Source: a virus. Taken from it: a stretch of DNA of 64,000 nt. Positions 4,467 through 57,050 of the stretch are shown piece after piece. The notes under the pieces were generated by a model. That model ran no database searches. It saw only the letters and a program-made list of their open reading frames with translations, and was not told the DNA's origin. The stretch's first letter is position 1, and the number at the start of each line of letters is the position of its first letter. The DNA is taken from IMG/VR virus record IMGVR_UViG_3300021424_000026, positions 1-64,000 of that record, one strand, 5' to 3'. Both the position numbers and the translations under genes were made by a program.

Positions 4467-6649
4467 CTAATATCGTATAATATAATTAGTTCAACTATAA
4501 CTTCTTCGCAATTTAAAGAACCCTCGGATCTATCGGTTTCGATTGTAATTTCGCTTGTAAGTTCATTTACTGTCACTTGTCCGATTCCAGGAATTGTTTC
4601 AAGTAAAGATTGAACTGTATTATACCATAATGAATCAGGTGGAGCGTCCACCAAACTTGTAGACACATAAAAATCTTGATCTAATTCGATTCCTTCGGGT
4701 TCTAATTCTACTTTTGCAATAAATGTGGCTGACACAAGTTGGCAGTTTGTTCTTCCTGTGGTTAATTCGTCAAATCCAGTATTCATGATTTGACCCAAAC
4801 CTTTTTTTGTTCCCGATACATATGAGAATGTTTGTTCTCCGACCAAGTAAGTTCTGTAAGACACGTAACTCTTGTTACAGTCTATAATTGCATTTCTTGT
4901 TTGACTACATCCCCCTGAATCTATGACTGTAACAGAATAAGTTCCTGCTGTTAAACCTGTGGCGGTTATAGACTGAGGATTACCCGATACATTATCTGAC
5001 CACTCGAATTCGAATGGAGGTACTCCCTCAGATATAAACGTTGTAATTAAACCATCTGACCCTTGTCCACAAGATGTAGAATATAGGTTGTATATCAAGG
5101 GCACACTACCGTTAACAAAAACTTGTTGAACCTGTGTGCATCCATCTGTATCTGTAATAGTAATTTGGTGTTGTCCTGATGAGACATTGGTAAATGTTAC
5201 CGCACTAGCAGTTGTATCAATTATATTTTGAACTCCATCTAAAGAATAGTCAAATGGAGATGTTCCTCCTGAAGATTTTTCCACTAAAATAATTCCAGTA
5301 TTTCCTCCACATGTAGTCCCTGTAGTGGTTGCGGTAAAAGTGAAGATATTGTCAGACAGTATTGTACTTTCCTCTAAAAAGTAACACCCACTTGAATCCT
5401 CGAGAATTATAGAGTATGTTCCTCCTGATAAATCGTTAAATGTTTGTGATGCGGCGTTAGTTGTTATCGTTTCAGTTGATGAGTCAGGGTAAATCAATGT
5501 ATATGTAAACGGTGAGGTGCCCCCTATAGCCGTAATTAGTATTGATCCGTCAGCATTACTACATGAGCTTTGTTCAATAGTAAGAATTATATCCGATATA
5601 CCATTCTCTGTTGCCAAATCGATACCCGTACTGAATTTACATAGTGCTGCGTCCGTAACTAAAAAGTTATAAGATCCAGCAGGCACTCCACTCAGGGTAA
5701 ATGACTGTGAATAAGATACATCAATTTGTCCCGTTGAGGCTGAATAATAGTATGGTCCTGTTCCACCGGTTATTGTCATGGTTATTACACCATCTGTGTT
5801 CAAGCAAGTTGGGATATTGTCGACGACAAAACTTCCGAGACCTACGGGATCGACTTGTCCAATTGACTGTTCTTTGATTTTAGAACATCCTGATGAATCT
5901 GTTACTTTTACAGAGTAAGTTCCCGCAGTGAGACCTGATATTGTGCTTCCTGTGGATCCATCGTTCCAAATATAGCTCCATGGTTGTACACCTGTTTGTC
6001 CTGTGATAATCAATTTTCCTGAAGGTTGTCCACATTGGGTGTCGGGTATAATATAAAAACCAAAATCAACCTCGACTGATGGATTTATAACAAAGGTTTG
6101 TGTCTTACCTGTACATCCACCATAATCCACAGCTGCAATATAGTAAGTTCCGGCAGAGAGATATTGGAAAGTTATCACTTCTAAGTCTGTTGTTGCAGAT
6201 TGCAATAATTCTCCTTCAAACGTGTATAAAAAGAAAGAAGTCTCAGAGTAATCAGATGAATCTTCAGCCGAAACTGTACCATTATTCAGACTACAGGTTG
6301 TTGCCGAGACATCGATTATTGTTGCGCAGTTACCCGATGATACTGGTACGTTGACAGTGAACTCTAAGTTGACAGGAACGGTAGAATCATTTACTCTGAA
6401 GGGGTATGTTGCTGCGGATAGATTATTAACTTGTGAGAACGTAAGTTTTGGCGAAAGTGGGTCAATGTAGTCGTAGTCATACGCTAAATAATCTATTGCC
6501 ATAATACCCTCTATACTACCAGCATTACTTGGGTAATACCAAGTAACCGTATACGGTGGTGTTCCACCCGAGAAACCGGCCTCTATGGAACCTGAAGAAT
6601 TGTTTTGACAATCACCAGTGACAAATAGTATGTAATTAAAATCAGCCAC
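4454..6649 (-). CDS. SprB-repeat tail/adhesin protein
   Basis: 731 residues. About seven tandem divergent modules of ~70-80 residues carry the SprB-repeat signature: GGTxPFxYxW, then xLxAGTYSVxVTDSSGC. Clear copies begin near GFSGGTPPYTV, GQTGVQPWSYIW, TGGTGPYYYS, IGGTSPFTYTL, SGGTSPFDYSL and SEGVPPFEFEW. SprB is the mobile surface adhesin of gliding Bacteroidota. Here the repeats probably form a tail fibre or baseplate appendage. The C-terminal ~150 residues (from about NKSYVSYRTYLVGEQTF) are non-repetitive. There is no signal peptide, as expected for a virion protein. The gene overlaps its neighbours on both sides. Confidence 0.8.
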   Translation of the reverse strand: MADFNYILFVTGDCQNNSSGSIEAGFSGGTPPYTVTWYYPSNAGSIEGIMAIDYLAYDYDYIDPLSPKLTFSQVNNLSAATYPFRVNDSTVPVNLEFTVNVPVSSGNCATIIDVSATTCSLNNGTVSAEDSSDYSETSFFLYTFEGELLQSATTDLEVITFQYLSAGTYYIAAVDYGGCTGKTQTFVINPSVEVDFGFYIIPDTQCGQPSGKLIITGQTGVQPWSYIWNDGSTGSTISGLTAGTYSVKVTDSSGCSKIKEQSIGQVDPVGLGSFVVDNIPTCLNTDGVITMTITGGTGPYYYSASTGQIDVSYSQSFTLSGVPAGSYNFLVTDAALCKFSTGIDLATENGISDIILTIEQSSCSNADGSILITAIGGTSPFTYTLIYPDSSTETITTNAASQTFNDLSGGTYSIILEDSSGCYFLEESTILSDNIFTFTATTTGTTCGGNTGIILVEKSSGGTSPFDYSLDGVQNIIDTTASAVTFTNVSSGQHQITITDTDGCTQVQQVFVNGSVPLIYNLYSTSCGQGSDGLITTFISEGVPPFEFEWSDNVSGNPQSITATGLTAGTYSVTVIDSGGCSQTRNAIIDCNKSYVSYRTYLVGEQTFSYVSGTKKGLGQIMNTGFDELTTGRTNCQLVSATFIAKVELEPEGIELDQDFYVSTSLVDAPPDSLWYNTVQSLLETIPGIGQVTVNELTSEITIETDRSEGSLNCEEVIVELIILYDIRCLS

Positions 6650-11658: not shown

Positions 11659-12446
11659 TATGGATTTATGTATTCATACCATTTTATGGGTGTTAGGCCC
11701 CCAACCCTTTGAGGTTCTATGTTGAACGTATCAAATACTTGATAAGTTCTGTTAGCGTAATCTAAATCTACTCTGTAGTAGAAATACTCACTCTGTGAGA
11801 AATTAAATTTGTTACCTAAAATTGATGACTGTGGTCTATTCATCATTCTTACAAATTGACCGGTCTTTCCATCAAAAAACTTGGCAGACATAAAAAATCT
11901 TGATATATCTAAGAAAGTTCTTTTCTTCAACCAATAAATAAAGAACCCTTCTTTATCACCAACATAGTTTAATATGTATTTAGGTTTTCTGATTAAAACA
12001 TCCGTTGTCTGCATCAGAGTATTCATTCTTTCACCTTGTTGTGTGGGTATAATAATTGTGATGTAGTTAGTTTGTTGAGTATCAATCGGACTATCATAAA
12101 GGTCTAACTTGAAAAATGAGTTTTTAAATGAGTTAGCATAGTAATATATTTCTTGTGTTGTAAAACCCTCGGCTCTGTAATCAATCTTCCAATTGTTTAC
12201 GTTGGACAAACCAGCACCCTCGTAGAAATAGAATTCATAGTTTATTTCTGTGGATGTTTGATAATCAGCGTGAGCAAATCTGTTGACTTCAAAATCCTTG
12301 TCAGATCTGAGTAATTCTTCGATAACATTATCTTGGAAGGCAACAATATCTGCCTCAGTATCAAGATACTCCCAATCCAAATTTACGGGAATGTTGATAC
12401 TATTGTTGGTAATACCCGATAACAATATTTGTTTACTCACACTCAT
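11658..12446 (-). CDS. Baseplate/tail structural protein, unknown
   Basis: 262 residues (MSVSKQILLSGITNNSINIP). Rich in aromatic residues (YYYANSFKNSFF, YEFYFYEGAG) and without catalytic motifs. It overlaps the upstream gene's end by 14 bp and abuts the downstream one, so it belongs to a tightly coupled structural operon. No family recognised. Confidence 0.55.
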   Translation of the reverse strand: MSVSKQILLSGITNNSINIPVNLDWEYLDTEADIVAFQDNVIEELLRSDKDFEVNRFAHADYQTSTEINYEFYFYEGAGLSNVNNWKIDYRAEGFTTQEIYYYANSFKNSFFKLDLYDSPIDTQQTNYITIIIPTQQGERMNTLMQTTDVLIRKPKYILNYVGDKEGFFIYWLKKRTFLDISRFFMSAKFFDGKTGQFVRMMNRPQSSILGNKFNFSQSEYFYYRVDLDYANRTYQVFDTFNIEPQRVGGLTPIKWYEYINP

Positions 12447-14175
12447 CCACTATAGGTTTGACTACTTTATCTCCTGTGTTTATGCTAAACCCACTCAACG
12501 GTCCGAATTTGGGACCTTCGCTTATGACTCCTCCAAGATCATACCCTCCGTCCGGTATTAGTCTAAATTGAGATGCGTTGAATGGATAATGTGAAAAATT
12601 TAAAAAAGGATAATTAACTCCTCTGTCCGCCTCATCGATAAAACCATACTCATAAATGTCTCTCCACATAAACTGTTCATATGCGTTTGAATAAAAAGCC
12701 CAAAAAGGTATTTGATCAACGTTGTAGAGTTCCCCTGTTTCAATATAATTTGAAAATACTCTAATCACCATACCAATATGTGGTTGGTAATAATATCCGC
12801 TTGGATTTGTATTTGTGATTGGTTCACTTTTGAATACATCTTGGTTGTATTTAATCTTATGATAATATGGTGATATTATTCTCTCTGACTGAGTTACATC
12901 ATTCCATTCACACCAATCTCCACAGATTGTGTCTCCCGATTTCAGATCCTTATTATAATAAAATTCCTCAGTTGATCCATTAGTTTTTGTATAAGAAGAA
13001 TATCCGATGTTGGAATTTGACTTGAGGTTGTTACTGTCCCAATATAAATTGTTTCTTTCTGTTATGTTGAATTCCCAACCTTCTTTTAGTCCTGTTTCTT
13101 GTGTTGGCTTATTGAAATATCCAGTAAAACCTTTATTGATAATTGTGAGAAATATCTCATTTAGGGGTCTTTTCTGATTGTCCAAAATATTATCAATATT
13201 CAGGTCGTAGTTTGCAGTGAATGTGTATACGGTGGATGCGTTCTTTTGGGAAATTCTTGATATATTGTTTGGGGTTAACGAGGAAAATTCAAACTTCTTG
13301 TTTGCGGTAAATGGTACTTCCTCAAATCCAGTTTTTGTTACAACAATATCATTAACGTTTGTGATAATCTTGTGCATTTTTACATAATACGTGGACTTTG
13401 ATTCACCTGAATTTGTTATATCAACAATCTTTTTGAAAGTTCCCTTTGCATTGTTTGCAAATGTCGTACCAGTATATCCAACATTTGTTAGATTGAATAT
13501 GTAAGTTTCTGACCCAAATGTACCATCACCGAGTGTGTTAACTTGGAATAGATTATTTCCGTCATACTTTAAAGACAATTCTACATAATCTCCTATCTGT
13601 AAGTTGTGTTCACTAATACAAATAAATGAAATGTAATTTGTACCATCAAACTTCATATTTTTAACAACAAAAGGAATACCATCCCCTGATAGCCATTCAA
13701 TTTCGTTAATTCCATCCGTCCAAAACATCTGTTTTGTATAATTGTTCTCTTGTGGTAAACTTAAGTAATAAGTCCAATTATAAGTGTAAGCACTTTTAGC
13801 AACATAACTGATATGTTGATCCTGTATGTTAGGTCTAAAAAATTCAAACTCATAATATTGAGGAAACCCTCTCCAAATACCATTCACTAAAGATTTCTGA
13901 GCATCAACATAGTATAGGTTGTATAGAAATGGAATGTATTCAGTTGTGCCAGTGTAGGAGTTTTCGTAAATCGGGCTGACCTTAAAAGTAGGTCTGAAAG
14001 TTGTTGAGGCTTGTCTTTCGTCATTGAACAAAACGGCGAGGTTAACAGAGGCAATCCGATCATATTCTGTTAGTTCGTTTTCTTTCGATTTAATTGAAAC
14101 TTTGAGACTTTGATCTACAGTTGGTGCAGATTTGAATCTCAACCTACTTGGTACTATGGTTGTTGTTCCGTTCAT
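12433..14175 (-). CDS. Baseplate/tail structural protein, unknown
   Basis: 580 residues (MNGTTTIVPSRLRFKSAPTV). Soluble, beta-rich composition, many aromatic residues. Starts 4 bp inside the end of the 1763-residue gene (ATGA-type overlap). No family or active site recognised. A virion role is inferred from its place between gp6-like and fibre genes. Confidence 0.55.
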   Translation of the reverse strand: MNGTTTIVPSRLRFKSAPTVDQSLKVSIKSKENELTEYDRIASVNLAVLFNDERQASTTFRPTFKVSPIYENSYTGTTEYIPFLYNLYYVDAQKSLVNGIWRGFPQYYEFEFFRPNIQDQHISYVAKSAYTYNWTYYLSLPQENNYTKQMFWTDGINEIEWLSGDGIPFVVKNMKFDGTNYISFICISEHNLQIGDYVELSLKYDGNNLFQVNTLGDGTFGSETYIFNLTNVGYTGTTFANNAKGTFKKIVDITNSGESKSTYYVKMHKIITNVNDIVVTKTGFEEVPFTANKKFEFSSLTPNNISRISQKNASTVYTFTANYDLNIDNILDNQKRPLNEIFLTIINKGFTGYFNKPTQETGLKEGWEFNITERNNLYWDSNNLKSNSNIGYSSYTKTNGSTEEFYYNKDLKSGDTICGDWCEWNDVTQSERIISPYYHKIKYNQDVFKSEPITNTNPSGYYYQPHIGMVIRVFSNYIETGELYNVDQIPFWAFYSNAYEQFMWRDIYEYGFIDEADRGVNYPFLNFSHYPFNASQFRLIPDGGYDLGGVISEGPKFGPLSGFSINTGDKVVKPIVDECE

Positions 14176-51526: not shown

Positions 51527-52035
51527 AAACCTCTGAACTCGTTATCGTTTACATAAGTGGCAACTATTGTTCTGTAGAACGGCTTGTAACCACCATAAGT
51601 GTGTTTATTGTCTGAGTTAACCCTTCCATCATCAACAACACTATAATATCTGACTCTATTTTCAGTCTCATAATATCCTATGTAGTCTCCAAAATCTATA
51701 GAGATCTCTAAATCGTCCAAGGTCTTTTGATAAACTGAAATCTGAATATTTCCCGGTTCAGATTGCGTAATTCTTGACCCACCCAGCATCGTGTTTGTTG
51801 GTATAAGAACCTTAACATATCCCTTAAACTCAACGGGAGGTAAGAATTGAATACCGTCTTGTAGAGCTTCTCCGTATACGTCATCTGTCTTTGTCTTTTT
51901 CTTATCAACCTTGTATAACACCAAAGTAAAATTCATGTCACCTTCCAACCACTCTTCACCCATACCGATATCAAGTGCGTAGTCTTCTCCACCAAAGAAC
52001 TTACCTAACCTTGTAATTGGGACCTGTCTTTCCAT
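51523..52035 (-). CDS. Neck protein, possibly gp14-like
   Basis: 170 residues using the ATG at 52035 (MERQVPITRLGKFFGGEDYA). The upstream in-frame ATG at 52050 is unlikely because the promoter-like TATTTATC lies between them. VYGEALQDGIQFLPPVEFKG, then DFGDYIGYYETENRVRYYSV, loosely resembles T4-like gp14 neck proteins. The head-tail connector context fits, as the gp13-like gene is nearby on the other strand, but similarity is weak. Confidence 0.5.
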   Translation of the reverse strand: MERQVPITRLGKFFGGEDYALDIGMGEEWLEGDMNFTLVLYKVDKKKTKTDDVYGEALQDGIQFLPPVEFKGYVKVLIPTNTMLGGSRITQSEPGNIQISVYQKTLDDLEISIDFGDYIGYYETENRVRYYSVVDDGRVNSDNKHTYGGYKPFYRTIVATYVNDNEFRGL

Positions 52036-52036
52036 T

Positions 52037-52068
52037 GTTGATAAATACATCGGAAAGAATTATATTTG
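52037..52068 (+). promoter_or_regulatory. Host-type promoter for the plus-strand helicase island
   Basis: GTTG (52037-52040), then 20 nt, then TATATTTG (52061-52068), which matches the Bacteroidota TAnnTTTG box exactly; the -33 element has one mismatch to TTTG. It lies 14 nt before the ATG of the SET-like gene. Confidence 0.5.
52040..52047 (-). promoter_or_regulatory. TATTTATC box deciding the start of the neck gene
   Basis: TATTTATC in sense orientation, 4 nt before the ATG at 52035. If this is a promoter the upstream ATG at 52050 cannot be used. Confidence 0.5.
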
Positions 52069-52082
52069 TTTTCAAAAATGAT

Positions 52083-52223
52083 ATGAAAATAAACCCACCA
52101 ACCAAAATATACTTGAATAATAGTCCAATACATGGTTTAGGTGTGATTGCCTCAGATAGTATAAAGATGTCGGGTGTGATAGAAATATGTCCTATAGTTG
52201 AGATGAATTTTATTGGGGCATGA
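52083..52223 (+). CDS. Truncated SET-domain protein (46 aa)
   Basis: 46 residues. The phrase KIYLNNSPIHGLGVIASDSI, then KMSGVIEICPIVE, is the characteristic start of small SET-domain proteins (SPIHGxGVxAxxxIxxGxxIExCP). The stop TGA at 52221 follows shortly, so the catalytic part (with the RFxNHxCxPN region) is absent. It is either a remnant or a stand-alone short protein. It lies 25 bp before the SNF2 helicase gene, probably in one transcript. Confidence 0.6.
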   Translation: MKINPPTKIYLNNSPIHGLGVIASDSIKMSGVIEICPIVEMNFIGA

Positions 52224-52248: not shown

Positions 52249-54003
52249 ATGAGTGACATATCAATAGAATCGAAAGCCCTTTCTTTATTAGAGATCTATG
52301 AAGGATCCAACAATTACATTCAAGAACTCAAACGCAAATTTAAACTTAACAGGAAATTTTATCCAACGAGAAGTCAATCTGAATATATTATAAACAACCA
52401 CGACAAACCACCAAAGGTTGCGAAGAAATGGGCGATGCTTGACACATATTTCGCACAAAAACTGGCAAACGATAAATTATACACACAGATACCTGAAAAG
52501 ATTTGGGTGGAAAAGTTATTAGCCGAGAAAGAGAAAGCTTATCATATATGGGGTAAATTTTTTGAAACTGAATCACTTCATGAATTTTGGTTACCAAAGG
52601 CCGCAGTGATAAAAGACCACACAGTAAAAGATGTAAAAATAGATTATGAAAAATATTCAAATAGACCACCGCTTGCTCATCAGAAAGAAGCCATTCAAAA
52701 GTTGGTCGAAAATAAAAGATATGTGCTTGCAGATGATATGGGTCTTGGCAAAACCACCTCTACCATTATAGCGGCTTTAGAAGCTAAGGCCAAGAAGATC
52801 CTGATTATCTGTCCCGCAAGTTTGAAGATAAATTGGCAGAGAGAAATCGAAAATTACTCAAAAAAATCAATTTATATTTCAGAAGGTAAGAACTTCAGCA
52901 AAGATCATGATTTCGTTATTATAAATTACGACATTATAAAAAATTTCCATGACCCTAAAAAGAAAGATGATTCGCAAATTCTTAATGCCGGTTTTGATTT
53001 GGTTGTTATTGATGAAGCACACTATATCAAAAATCCTCAAGCCCAAAGAACAAAACTAATCAACGACTTTGTTAAAAGAGTTGACAGACTTTGGTTATTA
53101 ACCGGTACTCCCATGACCTCAAGACCCATAGATTATTATAATCTGTTGAACCTTGTGGATTCTCCTGTTGCAAAAAACTGGATGGCGTATGTTATCCGAT
53201 ACTGTGAGGGATATCAATTCAAAGTTGGGGCTAGAAAAGTTTGGAACGTTATGGGTGCATCCAATCTTGAGGAACTAAGAGACAGAACCTCCAATTTGGT
53301 ACTAAGGAGACTAAAGGAAAATGTTTTAGATCTACCTGATAAAATTATTACTCCTGTTTACCTGAGATTAAAATCAAAAAAATATGAGGAAGTAATGGGT
53401 GACTACTACAATTGGTATGAAAAAAACCCTGACGAAAGCAAATCTCTTACCGTTCAATTTACTAAACTGACAGAAGTTAGGCAAGTTATTGCAGATGAAA
53501 AAATATTGAACACAATCGAACTCGCAGAAAATATTATTGAACAGGGAAAGAAGGTAATAATATTTTGTAATTTCACAAACTCCTTAGAAAAAATAATAGA
53601 ACACTTCGGTAAATCTGCAGTAAGATTAGATGGATCAATGTCCAAACCCGACCGACAAAATAGTGTTGATAGATTTCAGAACGATGATAAAGTAAAAGTA
53701 TTTGTTGGAAACATTAAAGCTGCAGGAGTTGGTATTACTTTAACAGCCGCTGAAGCTGTTATAATGAATGACCTGTCTTTTTTGCCTTCAGACCACTCAC
53801 AAGCTGAAGACCGAGCTTATAGATACGGTCAAAAAAACAATGTGTTAGTATATTATCCAATATTTGAAAATACTATCGAAGGTATCATTTACGACATTCT
53901 AAATAACAAAAAACAAGTTATTGCTACGGTCATGGGTGATTTAAAAAATGATGTCGATATTGTAGAAGAAATCATGAAACAAATTAATGAACGTAGACAA
54001 TAA
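52249..54003 (+). CDS. SNF2-type helicase (SMARCAL1/UvsW-like role)
   Basis: 584 residues. An N-terminal part (~1-130) precedes the motor: Walker A ADDMGLGKTT (residues 161-170), DEAH at 255-258 (VVIDEAHYI), and motif III LLTGTPMTS. Then comes the C-terminal lobe with IFCNFTNSLEKIIEHF and motif VI QAEDRAYRYGQ. This is the SNF2 superfamily 2 fold. T4-like phages use UvsW for annealing and branch migration, and this gene could serve the same role, but sequence grouping suggests a SMARCAL1-type remodeller. First sizable gene of the plus-strand island. Confidence 0.8.
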   Translation: MSDISIESKALSLLEIYEGSNNYIQELKRKFKLNRKFYPTRSQSEYIINNHDKPPKVAKKWAMLDTYFAQKLANDKLYTQIPEKIWVEKLLAEKEKAYHIWGKFFETESLHEFWLPKAAVIKDHTVKDVKIDYEKYSNRPPLAHQKEAIQKLVENKRYVLADDMGLGKTTSTIIAALEAKAKKILIICPASLKINWQREIENYSKKSIYISEGKNFSKDHDFVIINYDIIKNFHDPKKKDDSQILNAGFDLVVIDEAHYIKNPQAQRTKLINDFVKRVDRLWLLTGTPMTSRPIDYYNLLNLVDSPVAKNWMAYVIRYCEGYQFKVGARKVWNVMGASNLEELRDRTSNLVLRRLKENVLDLPDKIITPVYLRLKSKKYEEVMGDYYNWYEKNPDESKSLTVQFTKLTEVRQVIADEKILNTIELAENIIEQGKKVIIFCNFTNSLEKIIEHFGKSAVRLDGSMSKPDRQNSVDRFQNDDKVKVFVGNIKAAGVGITLTAAEAVIMNDLSFLPSDHSQAEDRAYRYGQKNNVLVYYPIFENTIEGIIYDILNNKKQVIATVMGDLKNDVDIVEEIMKQINERRQ

Positions 54004-54016
54004 CGAACTTATGGAT

Positions 54017-54024
54017 TATTTATA
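54017..54024 (+). promoter_or_regulatory. TATTTATA box before the SOD-nuclease gene
   Basis: TATTTATA in plus orientation, 15 nt before the ATG at 54040. It shows the motif follows gene direction on both strands. Confidence 0.55.
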
Positions 54025-54039
54025 GAATAATCGAATGTT

Positions 54040-55575
54040 ATGAATAAAATAGAACAGAAGATTGAACAACTTGAAAAACAAATCACAGAAACACACATCA
54101 ATGAAGAGACTCAGTTGTTAATCACAGAAATGAAAAAAATAGGAATAGAAAAATTACCTTATTCTTACTCAGCCCTCAAAAACTTCATCGATGCTGAAAC
54201 GATGAATTTTCACTACAACAAACATTATAAAGGGTACGTAGATAAATTAAACGACGCATTAGCCAAAAAAAAATATGGTGATCTTGATCTTGAAAAGATA
54301 ATCAAATCTATTTCAAGATATGACAAAACAATCCGTAACAATGCTGGTGGAGCATTCAATCATGCACTTTTTTGGAACATGCTTTCTCCCAAGCCAATGA
54401 AATTGAATGGGCCACTTGAGGATAAATTGAAAAAAGAGTTTAAATCCTTCAACAATTTTAAAAAAGAGTTTGAAACTGTAGCCAAAGAAAGATTTGGATC
54501 GGGGTGGGTGTGGTTGGTTTTGACTAGTCAAAACAAATTAAAAATTATGTCAACACCAAACCAAGACAATCCGTTAATGAATATAATTGAAGGTGGTGGT
54601 TTTCCTTTATTGGGATTGGACCTTTGGGAACATGCATATTATTTGAAATACAAAAACAAAAGAGATGAATATATTTCAAACTTTTGGAAGGTTGTCAATT
54701 GGGATTTCGTGTCAAAAATGTATGATATGAAAATCGAAACAAGATTAGCCGAGTCAATCAAACTAAAGGAAATTATAATGGAAGGCAAATCTGAAAAATG
54801 TACACCAAATGAAATGGAAACTATCAGACTAATGTTCAACATAAACAAAGATATAGAAAAAATATACAAAGAAAGTATTGACAGGATTTTGAAAGAGGTA
54901 TTCAATGAAAATTGGGCAGATAAAGACAACGAAGGAAATATGTCAGGTGTTTACTTTTTAGAACAACCAGGAAGATCAGTTATCAACAAACTAAACACAA
55001 ATTACACAACTTTTTGCATTCTTATTAAAGATATTAATAAAATAATTCAAAACTTTCACCCTGAAAAACCCCAAATAAATTTTGTTGGAAAAACCCCAAC
55101 TGAACAGGTTATGGAGGTTAAGAGGTTTGTAAAAGCGATAGATTACTTTAAGTTCAAAATATTTGATCCATCAAGCTTAACACTTCAAAATATAATGAGA
55201 TCCTTGACAGAAACGGATGCGGCTGGTGAAAAAAGAGAGGAAATTACGGCATCTATTTTGGGAAAATTTTTTGGACCATCCGTTGAAATTTTCAAAGTGG
55301 GTGGGCTGGGTGAAAAGGAAGACATGATTCAAGGGGTTGATTTGAAAATAAAAAAAGACGGAAAAGAATATACTGGCCAAGTTAAGCCATTTAGAGAAAG
55401 AATTGATAAGGAACCTAACATAATATTGAAAGGCACAGGAAAAGTAAAAACCTACAATACAGATTGGATGATTTTCCAAAAAGGAAGGAACGTTTTAGTG
55501 TTTAACAAGAAACCAAGAATTATATCAGGCAACTTTGTATTTCCATCAGATTCATTGGTCTACGATATAAAATAA
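54040..55575 (+). CDS. Fe/Mn superoxide dismutase fused to a PD-(D/E)XK-like domain
   Basis: 511 residues. Residues ~36-230 form a full Fe/Mn superoxide dismutase: metal ligands His58 (MNFHYNKHYKGYV), His108 (NNAGGAFNHALFW), Asp194 and His198 (LGLDLWEHAYYLKYKN). Gln175 in STPNQDNPLM and GG at 103-104 are the MnSOD-type pattern. The C-terminal half (~237-511) is unrelated to SOD. Near its end GEKREEITASILGKF, then EDMIQGVDLKI, then EYTGQVKPF fits a PD-(D/E)XK-like nuclease core: E400/E401, D434, Q447-x-K449. SOD converts superoxide to peroxide; the nuclease-like part could bind or cut nucleic acid. The fusion is unusual. Adjacent to an SNF2 helicase. Confidence 0.8.
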   Translation: MNKIEQKIEQLEKQITETHINEETQLLITEMKKIGIEKLPYSYSALKNFIDAETMNFHYNKHYKGYVDKLNDALAKKKYGDLDLEKIIKSISRYDKTIRNNAGGAFNHALFWNMLSPKPMKLNGPLEDKLKKEFKSFNNFKKEFETVAKERFGSGWVWLVLTSQNKLKIMSTPNQDNPLMNIIEGGGFPLLGLDLWEHAYYLKYKNKRDEYISNFWKVVNWDFVSKMYDMKIETRLAESIKLKEIIMEGKSEKCTPNEMETIRLMFNINKDIEKIYKESIDRILKEVFNENWADKDNEGNMSGVYFLEQPGRSVINKLNTNYTTFCILIKDINKIIQNFHPEKPQINFVGKTPTEQVMEVKRFVKAIDYFKFKIFDPSSLTLQNIMRSLTETDAAGEKREEITASILGKFFGPSVEIFKVGGLGEKEDMIQGVDLKIKKDGKEYTGQVKPFRERIDKEPNIILKGTGKVKTYNTDWMIFQKGRNVLVFNKKPRIISGNFVFPSDSLVYDIK

Positions 55576-55586
55576 CTTTAAGAAAG

Positions 55587-55594
55587 TATTTATA
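55587..55594 (+). promoter_or_regulatory. TATTTATA box before gp13-like neck gene
   Basis: TATTTATA in plus orientation, only 5 nt before the ATG at 55600. A promoter start here would make the message essentially leaderless. Confidence 0.55.
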
Positions 55595-55599
55595 TTATT

Positions 55600-56712
55600 A
55601 TGCCAGTAATCGGGGAACCAGATAGAGGTCGAATTTATACTAGAGTCAAACATCTACTCGGTGCACCACTTCGTTCAGTTGAATTGGAAGATGAGATGAT
55701 GGACTCATTAATGGAATTGTCTATTCAAGATTATACACAATATACTTTGGATTGGTTGATTGAGTCTCAATGGGTTAATCTTGTAAATTTAAACATGGAT
55801 GAGAAATCTGTAGCAAAAGCTTTGATAACAAGAACTATGGACTTCGAAAATCAGTTTACTTACGCATATTCGAAAATTGTGGGTCTACAAACATCAGGTC
55901 CCTATGTTCTGAAGAAAGATTATATCACACTTTCAGCAAATACACAACTATATGAAATTCCAGCAGGACGCGAGGTGAACGAAGTTTTATGGTTTTCATC
56001 AGCTGAGTTAACGAACGTACTATTCGACCCATGGTCTATGGGATTCATAGGTGGACCCGGTCTTGGAGGACCGGCGGGTTATTCACAAATGGGATATAGT
56101 GGATCGTATTTTATGATGCCTGCCTTCGACATGTTATTGCGACTCCAAGAAATTAATATTCAAAGCCGTATTTTAGGTGGGGAATTAACTTACAGAATTA
56201 CAGGATTACCTGACGGAAAAAAGTTGTTACAACTTTACAACGTACCAGGTGGAAAGTTCGATTTCGGTAACTTCGGGTTCAATCAATATCGTGTGTGGTA
56301 TTGGTATTATGACGTAGGACCCGAAGATAGAGCAGCTTGTTTGAAAGCGAATCCTGATATAATAAAACTTCCATCTGATGTTCCTTTGGAAACATTGGAG
56401 TGGGAAGATCTTAACGTGCCAGCACAGCAATGGGTGAGGAGATGGTTCACCGCCTACTGTAAAGAGACCTTAGCAAGAGTAAGGGGAAAGTATAGTGGTA
56501 ACCTCAAAACACCTGACTCTGAAATTACAATGGATTACCAAAGCCTTCTGACTGAATCTAAAGACGAAAAAACTAAGCTTGAAGAAGAACTGAAACTCAG
56601 ATTAGAACGTCTGCGTCCTGAAAAGGTTATGGAGAAAGAAGCTCTGACAGCTGAGAATCTTAACAAACAAATGAGATACAGAGCGTTGCCAAGACAAATT
56701 TATGTTATCTAA
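55600..56712 (+). CDS. 13: Neck protein, gp13-like
   Basis: 370 residues. The C-terminal part QQWVRRWFTAYCKETLARVR, then GKYSGNLKTPDSEITMDYQS, matches the T4-like gp13 neck pattern (WV-RxxxA-xK-x-x-LxxxRGKYS, LDGxxLL). A coiled-coil tail follows (EEELKLRLERLRPEKVMEKE). gp13 and gp14 join head and tail. It lies divergent to the minus-strand neck genes. Its stop overlaps the next ATG (TAATG). Confidence 0.75.
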   Translation: MPVIGEPDRGRIYTRVKHLLGAPLRSVELEDEMMDSLMELSIQDYTQYTLDWLIESQWVNLVNLNMDEKSVAKALITRTMDFENQFTYAYSKIVGLQTSGPYVLKKDYITLSANTQLYEIPAGREVNEVLWFSSAELTNVLFDPWSMGFIGGPGLGGPAGYSQMGYSGSYFMMPAFDMLLRLQEINIQSRILGGELTYRITGLPDGKKLLQLYNVPGGKFDFGNFGFNQYRVWYWYYDVGPEDRAACLKANPDIIKLPSDVPLETLEWEDLNVPAQQWVRRWFTAYCKETLARVRGKYSGNLKTPDSEITMDYQSLLTESKDEKTKLEEELKLRLERLRPEKVMEKEALTAENLNKQMRYRALPRQIYVI

Positions 56713-57050
56713 TGTCGATTATCAAAACACAACCCTCACAAAGATTATTCGAAGGAAGAATTATTGAAACATCCGAAATTTCTTTAATTAATAACGAAGA
56801 ATATTACATTACAAGCGGTGAAGATTGTATTGTTGTAAGAGGAGATAAATCTACAACAATCAAGTTACAAAGCACAACTACAGATCATGTAGTTGTCAAA
56901 GCTTTAACACATCTAATTATTTTACCAGATATTGGTAGAATTGACGAAGATTTCGATGAAATAAGTTGTGATAGAGGTGCATGTATTGAGTTCAGATTTA
57001 TAAACGGTAATTGGTACATCCTGTCATCAGATGGGTTGAAACAATCCTGA
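56712..57050 (+). CDS. Small virion-like protein, unknown
   Basis: 112 residues (MSIIKTQPSQRLFEGRIIET). Beta-rich, ending GACIEFRFINGNWYILSSDG, a phrase common at the tips of phage fibre/cap proteins. It starts at the gp13-like stop and its 3' end overlaps the convergent DNA polymerase gene by 24 bp. Function unknown; a virion role is likely from position. Confidence 0.5.
   Translation: MSIIKTQPSQRLFEGRIIETSEISLINNEEYYITSGEDCIVVRGDKSTTIKLQSTTTDHVVVKALTHLIILPDIGRIDEDFDEISCDRGACIEFRFINGNWYILSSDGLKQS

Follow-up and report, generated by a model that had tools for sequence, protein, structure and literature searches.

A superoxide dismutase-nuclease fusion gene conserved in freshwater T4-like phages, probably encoding a modular internal head protein

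Within a stretch of viral DNA of 64,000 nucleotides (IMG/VR record IMGVR_UViG_3300021424_000026, positions 1 to 64,000; hereafter the window) one gene joins a superoxide dismutase (SOD) to a nuclease-like domain, which raises the question of whether such a gene is real and what role the two enzymes could have in a single phage protein. The 511-residue open reading frame claimed in the preliminary description was recovered, and its parts were delimited as follows.

54040..55575, + strand: SOD-nuclease fusion gene, 511 aa, in a single uninterrupted frame
54040..54138, + strand: N-terminal leader, residues 1-33, with L27-I28-x-E30 directly before the SOD and a predicted cut after E30
54139..54726, + strand: Mn/Fe superoxide dismutase domain, residues 34-229, assigned by Pfam, PDB and active-site residues
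54727..54801, + strand: linker, residues 230-254, in which a pair of (L/I)xE(A/G/S) sites, E238 and E248, is conserved
54802..55176, + strand: helical domain, residues 255-379, with a conserved N-x2-N-T-N motif
55177..55572, + strand: predicted PD-(D/E)XK nuclease core, residues 380-511, with E400, D434, Q447 and K449

With the whole protein as query, environmental viral contigs yielded 155 confirmed relatives, the best 80 of which were 56-100% identical to it and full length in nearly all cases. The C-terminal half as sole query gave 482 confirmed loci, and among all loci collected up to that point, checking showed 155 fusions and a single free-standing homologue, the latter from a 735-kb phage. 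An identical fusion gene was also present in a separate 149-kb contig. With this second copy and homologous fusions at 155 loci in other phages, the assembly join against which the preliminary description had cautioned was ruled out; an assembly chimera or annotation artefact has a negligible chance of being the explanation, since the fused copies come from many assemblies and nearly all of the best 80 relatives match over the whole length. Mean majority identity in 28 diverse fusions was 91% for the SOD, 77% for the leader, 72% for the linker, 61% for the helical domain and 60% for the nuclease core. Judged by these comparisons the fusion is real and old, and is kept in many freshwater T4-like phages. 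It had been called a non-standard combination, and the literature search brought up no account of a SOD-nuclease fusion. One database entry, A0A6J5L953 (501 aa, uncultured Caudovirales phage), is a full-length homologue with 50% identity and the same architecture; UniProt annotates it as 'superoxide dismutase' only, and the nuclease half carries no name there. M230 was examined as a possible internal start and rejected: this residue is invariant, but no clear ribosome-binding site was seen and the candidate was indistinguishable from chance.

The fusion lies in a conserved group of genes.

52017..52223, + strand: remnant of an accessory SET-domain gene, here a 68-aa stub
52249..54003, + strand: SNF2-type helicase gene, the conserved upstream neighbour
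55600..56712, + strand: gp13-like neck (head-tail adaptor) gene, the conserved downstream neighbour (phrog_211, 9.7e-11)
56712..57050, + strand: 112-aa gene, function unassigned, the last gene of the conserved island

Relatives keep the order SNF2, SOD-nuclease, gp13-like neck gene, 112-aa gene and convergent B-family polymerase gene. The SNF2 helicase noticed at the outset was confirmed by a Pfam profile match and the plus-strand island by its conservation from 52249 to 57050; the SET gene upstream of SNF2 is indeed truncated, as several relatives have a full-length version (Pfam 4.4e-14). SET versions of 131-148 aa were seen in relatives L007, L065, L071 and L078, and a SET gene also adjoins the nuclease homologue in the 735-kb phage (L082 3284-3721, - strand). 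In another relative, L118, free-standing Cys-rich ORFs (4562-5311 and 12248-12838), which are possibly mobile nuclease-like genes, lie between SNF2 and the fusion and elsewhere. Since the 149-kb contig with the window's gene encodes a gp23 capsid protein and an S77 prohead protease, as does a 182-kb relative, we consider the phage to be T4-like. The same contig encodes an outer-membrane beta-barrel protein of 1095 aa with a carboxypeptidase-regulatory domain (L173 5886-9173; 119886-123173 of the contig), and because of this gene and of a best solved SOD relative from Sphingobacterium our guess is a host among the Bacteroidota.

The SOD domain had been described as complete, with four metal ligands, the MnSOD-type Gly pair at 103-104 and Gln175, and this was confirmed. 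Pfam Sod_Fe_N (1.9e-22, 79.9 bits, cut-off 27) and Sod_Fe_C (2.3e-40, 137.2 bits, cut-off 20.9) together span residues 36-226, and solved MnSODs in the PDB match the domain at E ~1e-59 with 40-49% identity, the Sphingobacterium enzyme being the closest. Among 70 SODs encoded in the slot between the SNF2 and neck genes, the 14 active-site positions checked were all identical; the metal ligands H58, H108, D194 and H198 (three His and one Asp), the gateway Tyr/His and the Mn-type Gln characteristic of the family were present in 70/70, and H62, Y66, G103, G104, W156, W158, Q175, E197 and Y201 likewise. The peripheral R208 is replaced by Lys in six. On these residues the fusion holds an intact Mn/Fe-SOD, of Mn type by GG103-104 and Gln175. 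It possesses all ligands and second-sphere residues of the Fe/Mn superoxide dismutase family (PF00081 + PF02777) but, unlike that family, bears phage-specific parts at both ends.

A fold search with the full-length model yielded overwhelmingly SODs, and the C-terminal half was therefore modelled alone (50 relatives in the input; pLDDT 88, pTM 0.82). As had been anticipated, the fold search of this model returned PD-(D/E)XK enzymes, which made up all of the top six PDB matches: I-Ssp6803I was the best (E 3.4e-3, probability 1.0), Hjc Holliday-junction resolvases ranked next, and RecU, EcoT38I and MGME1 came further down. The model has the alpha-beta-beta-beta core fold of the superfamily, with E400 on a long helix, D434 opening a strand, and the pair Q447/K449 in the following one. 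Of the residues originally proposed as a PD-(D/E)XK core (E400/E401, D434 and Q447-x-K449), E400, D434, Q447 and K449 were identical in 69/69 sequences, including homologues from a 635-kb and the 735-kb phage, so that the acidic pair and the (D/E/Q)-x-K signature are present throughout; E401 varies, and E400 is therefore taken as the relevant acid. By model and conserved residues, we classify the C-terminal domain as a PD-(D/E)XK nuclease core. I-Ssp6803I and Hjc-type resolvases share its fold and its E / D / Q-x-K core, placed on equivalent secondary-structure elements; the helical domain with the N-x2-N-T-N motif, in contrast, is the fusion nuclease's own, and the C-terminal half has no sequence match to a Pfam family above cut-off. 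No named Pfam or PHROG family was convincing for the C-terminal 280 residues (phrog_5018, a family of unassigned function, gave a weak match), and one scan of cellular genome contigs found no relatives of the C-terminal half. The free-standing homologue of the 735-kb phage also has the helical domain; a pattern search of viral contigs found no further relatives of it, and a search of a phage collection found only the record itself and its twin.

A further 80 more distant loci were retrieved via the neck gene. Their slot contained a SOD that lacked a close nuclease in 43 loci, the fusion in 34, only a nuclease in 2 and, in 1, SOD and nuclease as neighbouring genes. Three more loci, from capsid-protein relatives, held a nuclease only (L257) or a SOD only (L261, L263), and in the L263 phage a distant homologue of the nuclease is encoded at another position of the genome. 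Enlarged forms are frequent among the 43 SOD proteins, the additions being a metalloprotease-like N-terminal domain, divergent copies of the same nuclease, tandem nucleases or unknown domains. The N-terminal domain (residues 1-130; L310, L283, L344 and 24 other slot proteins) contains an invariant HEWxHxxQ motif of HExxH type and a downstream GGxNEDEANA; it can be called metalloprotease-like by motif, no convincing Pfam or PDB match was obtained for it, and a PDB sequence search gave no name to this domain or to the X domains. Four proteins (L283, L292, L317, L321) have a C-terminal partner domain of ~340 aa with invariant DFE, SP(Y/F)D and SCK motifs, which may represent another PD-(D/E)XK-like nuclease unrelated to the first. 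The 906-aa protein of L334 has two nuclease copies after the SOD (residues 230-906), and in the fusions of L295 and L300 the nuclease half ends before the catalytic core, a natural loss of the catalytic part. In a quick tree with many weak forks the slot SODs grouped as one clade, separate from three cellular-like SODs, and 12 changes of architecture were counted (minimum possible 6).

The preliminary description had suggested that the fusion may couple superoxide handling to DNA processing. This found no support in the slot, which also accommodates SOD alone, nuclease alone, separate genes and unrelated SOD partners. Because its contents change between relatives, a lasting chemical coupling of the SOD with the PD-(D/E)XK nuclease is unlikely; and since the domains occur apart and the linker has protease-type sites, we favour two enzymes travelling together rather than one coupled enzyme.

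Two copies of a short element precede the fusion and its downstream neighbour.

54017..54024, + strand: promoter-like element TATTTATA, 15 nt before the fusion start codon
55587..55594, + strand: TATTTATA element before the neck gene

The element was found in 57/65 distinct fusion upstream regions. Its core TATTTAT occurred upstream of 20/24 fusions, 34/36 other SOD genes and 65/66 neck genes, and upstream of 0/69 SNF2 genes. On the 149-kb contig TATTTATA lies within 60 nt upstream and in coding orientation at 26 genes, against 1.9 expected and 4 in the opposite orientation. Genes preceded by it include those for portal, prohead protease, scaffold (assigned by position), tail tube, neck and the fusion; ribonucleotide reductase and DnaB genes carry it too, and we therefore regard the element as promoter-like and not as proof of late expression. 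The canonical T4 late promoter TATAAATA in coding orientation was not enriched on this contig (4 genes), the enriched form being the reverse, TATTTATA. The 1095-aa beta-barrel gene also has the element upstream. In many relatives it sits within an inverted repeat (GGATTAT...ATAATCC), e.g., at window positions 54010-54039.

The T4 prohead protease gp21 trims gp23 and the internal proteins at their N-termini (PMC9958956). The fusion has only two conserved (L/I)xE(A/G/S) sites, E238 and E248, and the linker holds both; L27, I28 and E30 before the SOD are invariant among the 28 fusions, with Met at P1' of E30. In 70 non-redundant SOD proteins of all architectures, compared with expectation by shuffling, the 30 residues that follow the SOD held 80 instances of the motif (5.7 expected) and the 35 that precede it 27 (4.9 expected), the SOD itself only 4 (18.4 expected, a depletion) and the nuclease 16 (16.7 expected), counts which come from related and hence not independent sequences and from a short motif that is not specific. 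Genome-wide, (L/I)xE was only slightly enriched at N-termini (19% vs 13%), and two conserved instances fall inside other proteins. As a control, L-I-N-E↓A is present at E60 of the major capsid protein in 42/42 sequences (arrows mark the cut position, predicted outside T4) and the phage's own prohead protease carries I-L-K-E↓A; the linker sites follow the same pattern as the capsid protein site, which is that of the phage's own type of prohead protease.

A leader ending in such a site is clear in the SOD-only relatives, which start MKSLKLLSE↓S or MKYLNIITE↓S, and in the free nuclease of the 635-kb phage, which starts MKKFTEYIKE↓S; it is degenerate in the first site of the window protein. These leaders resemble the MKTYQEFIAE↓A of T4 IPII/IPIII. 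A nuclease-only form in the slot has a leader ending LSE↓S at the homologous position, and the metalloprotease-like domain terminates in (L/I/V/M)(F/Y)E(S/G/N) in nearly all copies. The T4 internal head proteins (IPI-IPIII, Alt) carry a gp21-cut capsid-targeting leader, and the fusion group is like them in the leader pattern of its SOD-only members and in the (L/I)xE↓(A/S) site, in a phage that, like T4, has gp21/22/23-type head genes. It differs in having no sequence homology with them and in its putative multi-domain cargo of SOD, nuclease and protease-like modules with sites between the domains. Ejection proteins of the giant phage SPN3US similarly have long N-terminal parts with several protease motifs per protein, although the motif is AxE, unlike the (L/I)xE of the fusion, and the part of their description considered here mentions no SOD or PD-(D/E)XK domain (PMC5694885).

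These facts fit best with a gene product that is probably an internal head protein of modular build in a T4-like phage lineage; it would be cleaved within the prohead, and its parts would be ejected as individual enzymes. The fusion protein would be made together with the head genes and enter the prohead, helped by its leader; a gp21-like protease would cleave behind E30 and E238/E248, so that SOD and nuclease would come to lie free beside the genome, and both would be ejected together with the phage DNA. In early infection the SOD would then remove superoxide, and the nuclease may cut DNA of the host or of a competitor, or else junctions in the phage's own DNA. Packaging, cutting, ejection, the two activities and the nuclease target are all steps that we infer. 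For the wider notion of a SOD-centred virion polyprotein, that is, a head-packaged precursor with swappable enzyme modules, matured in the capsid and delivered with the genome, we judge the chances to be even.

The protein might instead be a single intracellular bifunctional enzyme, neither packaged nor cut, in which the SOD dimer pairs two nuclease domains and removes superoxide near DNA in repair, recombination or packaging. The stability of the fusion in a large clade of 155 fused loci, the Hjc resolvases and a phage Holliday-junction resolvase among the fold matches, and a position adjoining SNF2 and near the B-family polymerase gene would all suit such an enzyme. We nevertheless consider it unlikely, given that the same slot has SOD or nuclease alone or as separate genes, that the SOD takes other partners, and that linkers concentrate protease-type sites.

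It is less probable still that the SOD is an ordinary auxiliary metabolic gene which became fused to the adjacent gene, with joint expression as the only role. SOD-only genes do occur in the slot, and SODs are known in other phages, e.g., giant Pseudomonas and Vibrio phages; yet repeated, differing fusions around one SOD clade and the conserved linker sites suggest selection on architecture, and a nuclease-only form retains its leader. That the C-terminal domain is a selfish homing-type endonuclease with the SOD gene as its landing place would agree with I-Ssp6803I, a homing endonuclease, as best PDB match, but every fused copy is at one fixed locus, no intron, intein or insertion behaviour was seen, the free-standing homologues of huge phages have the helical domain as well, and SOD partner swaps include non-nuclease domains, all of which makes it highly improbable.

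T4-type phages inject internal proteins, but only for a few of them is it known what is carried. In the freshwater phage group described here, which is widespread, an intact SOD is retained at a single locus next to head genes, and the enzymes joined to it are swapped. Should the proposed packaging into the head be true, an antioxidant enzyme and nucleases would enter the cell from the first moment of infection, the role of superoxide in early infection would become directly testable, and the locus would constitute a natural library of injected effectors, with SOD-nuclease cargo of a kind new for T4-like phages.
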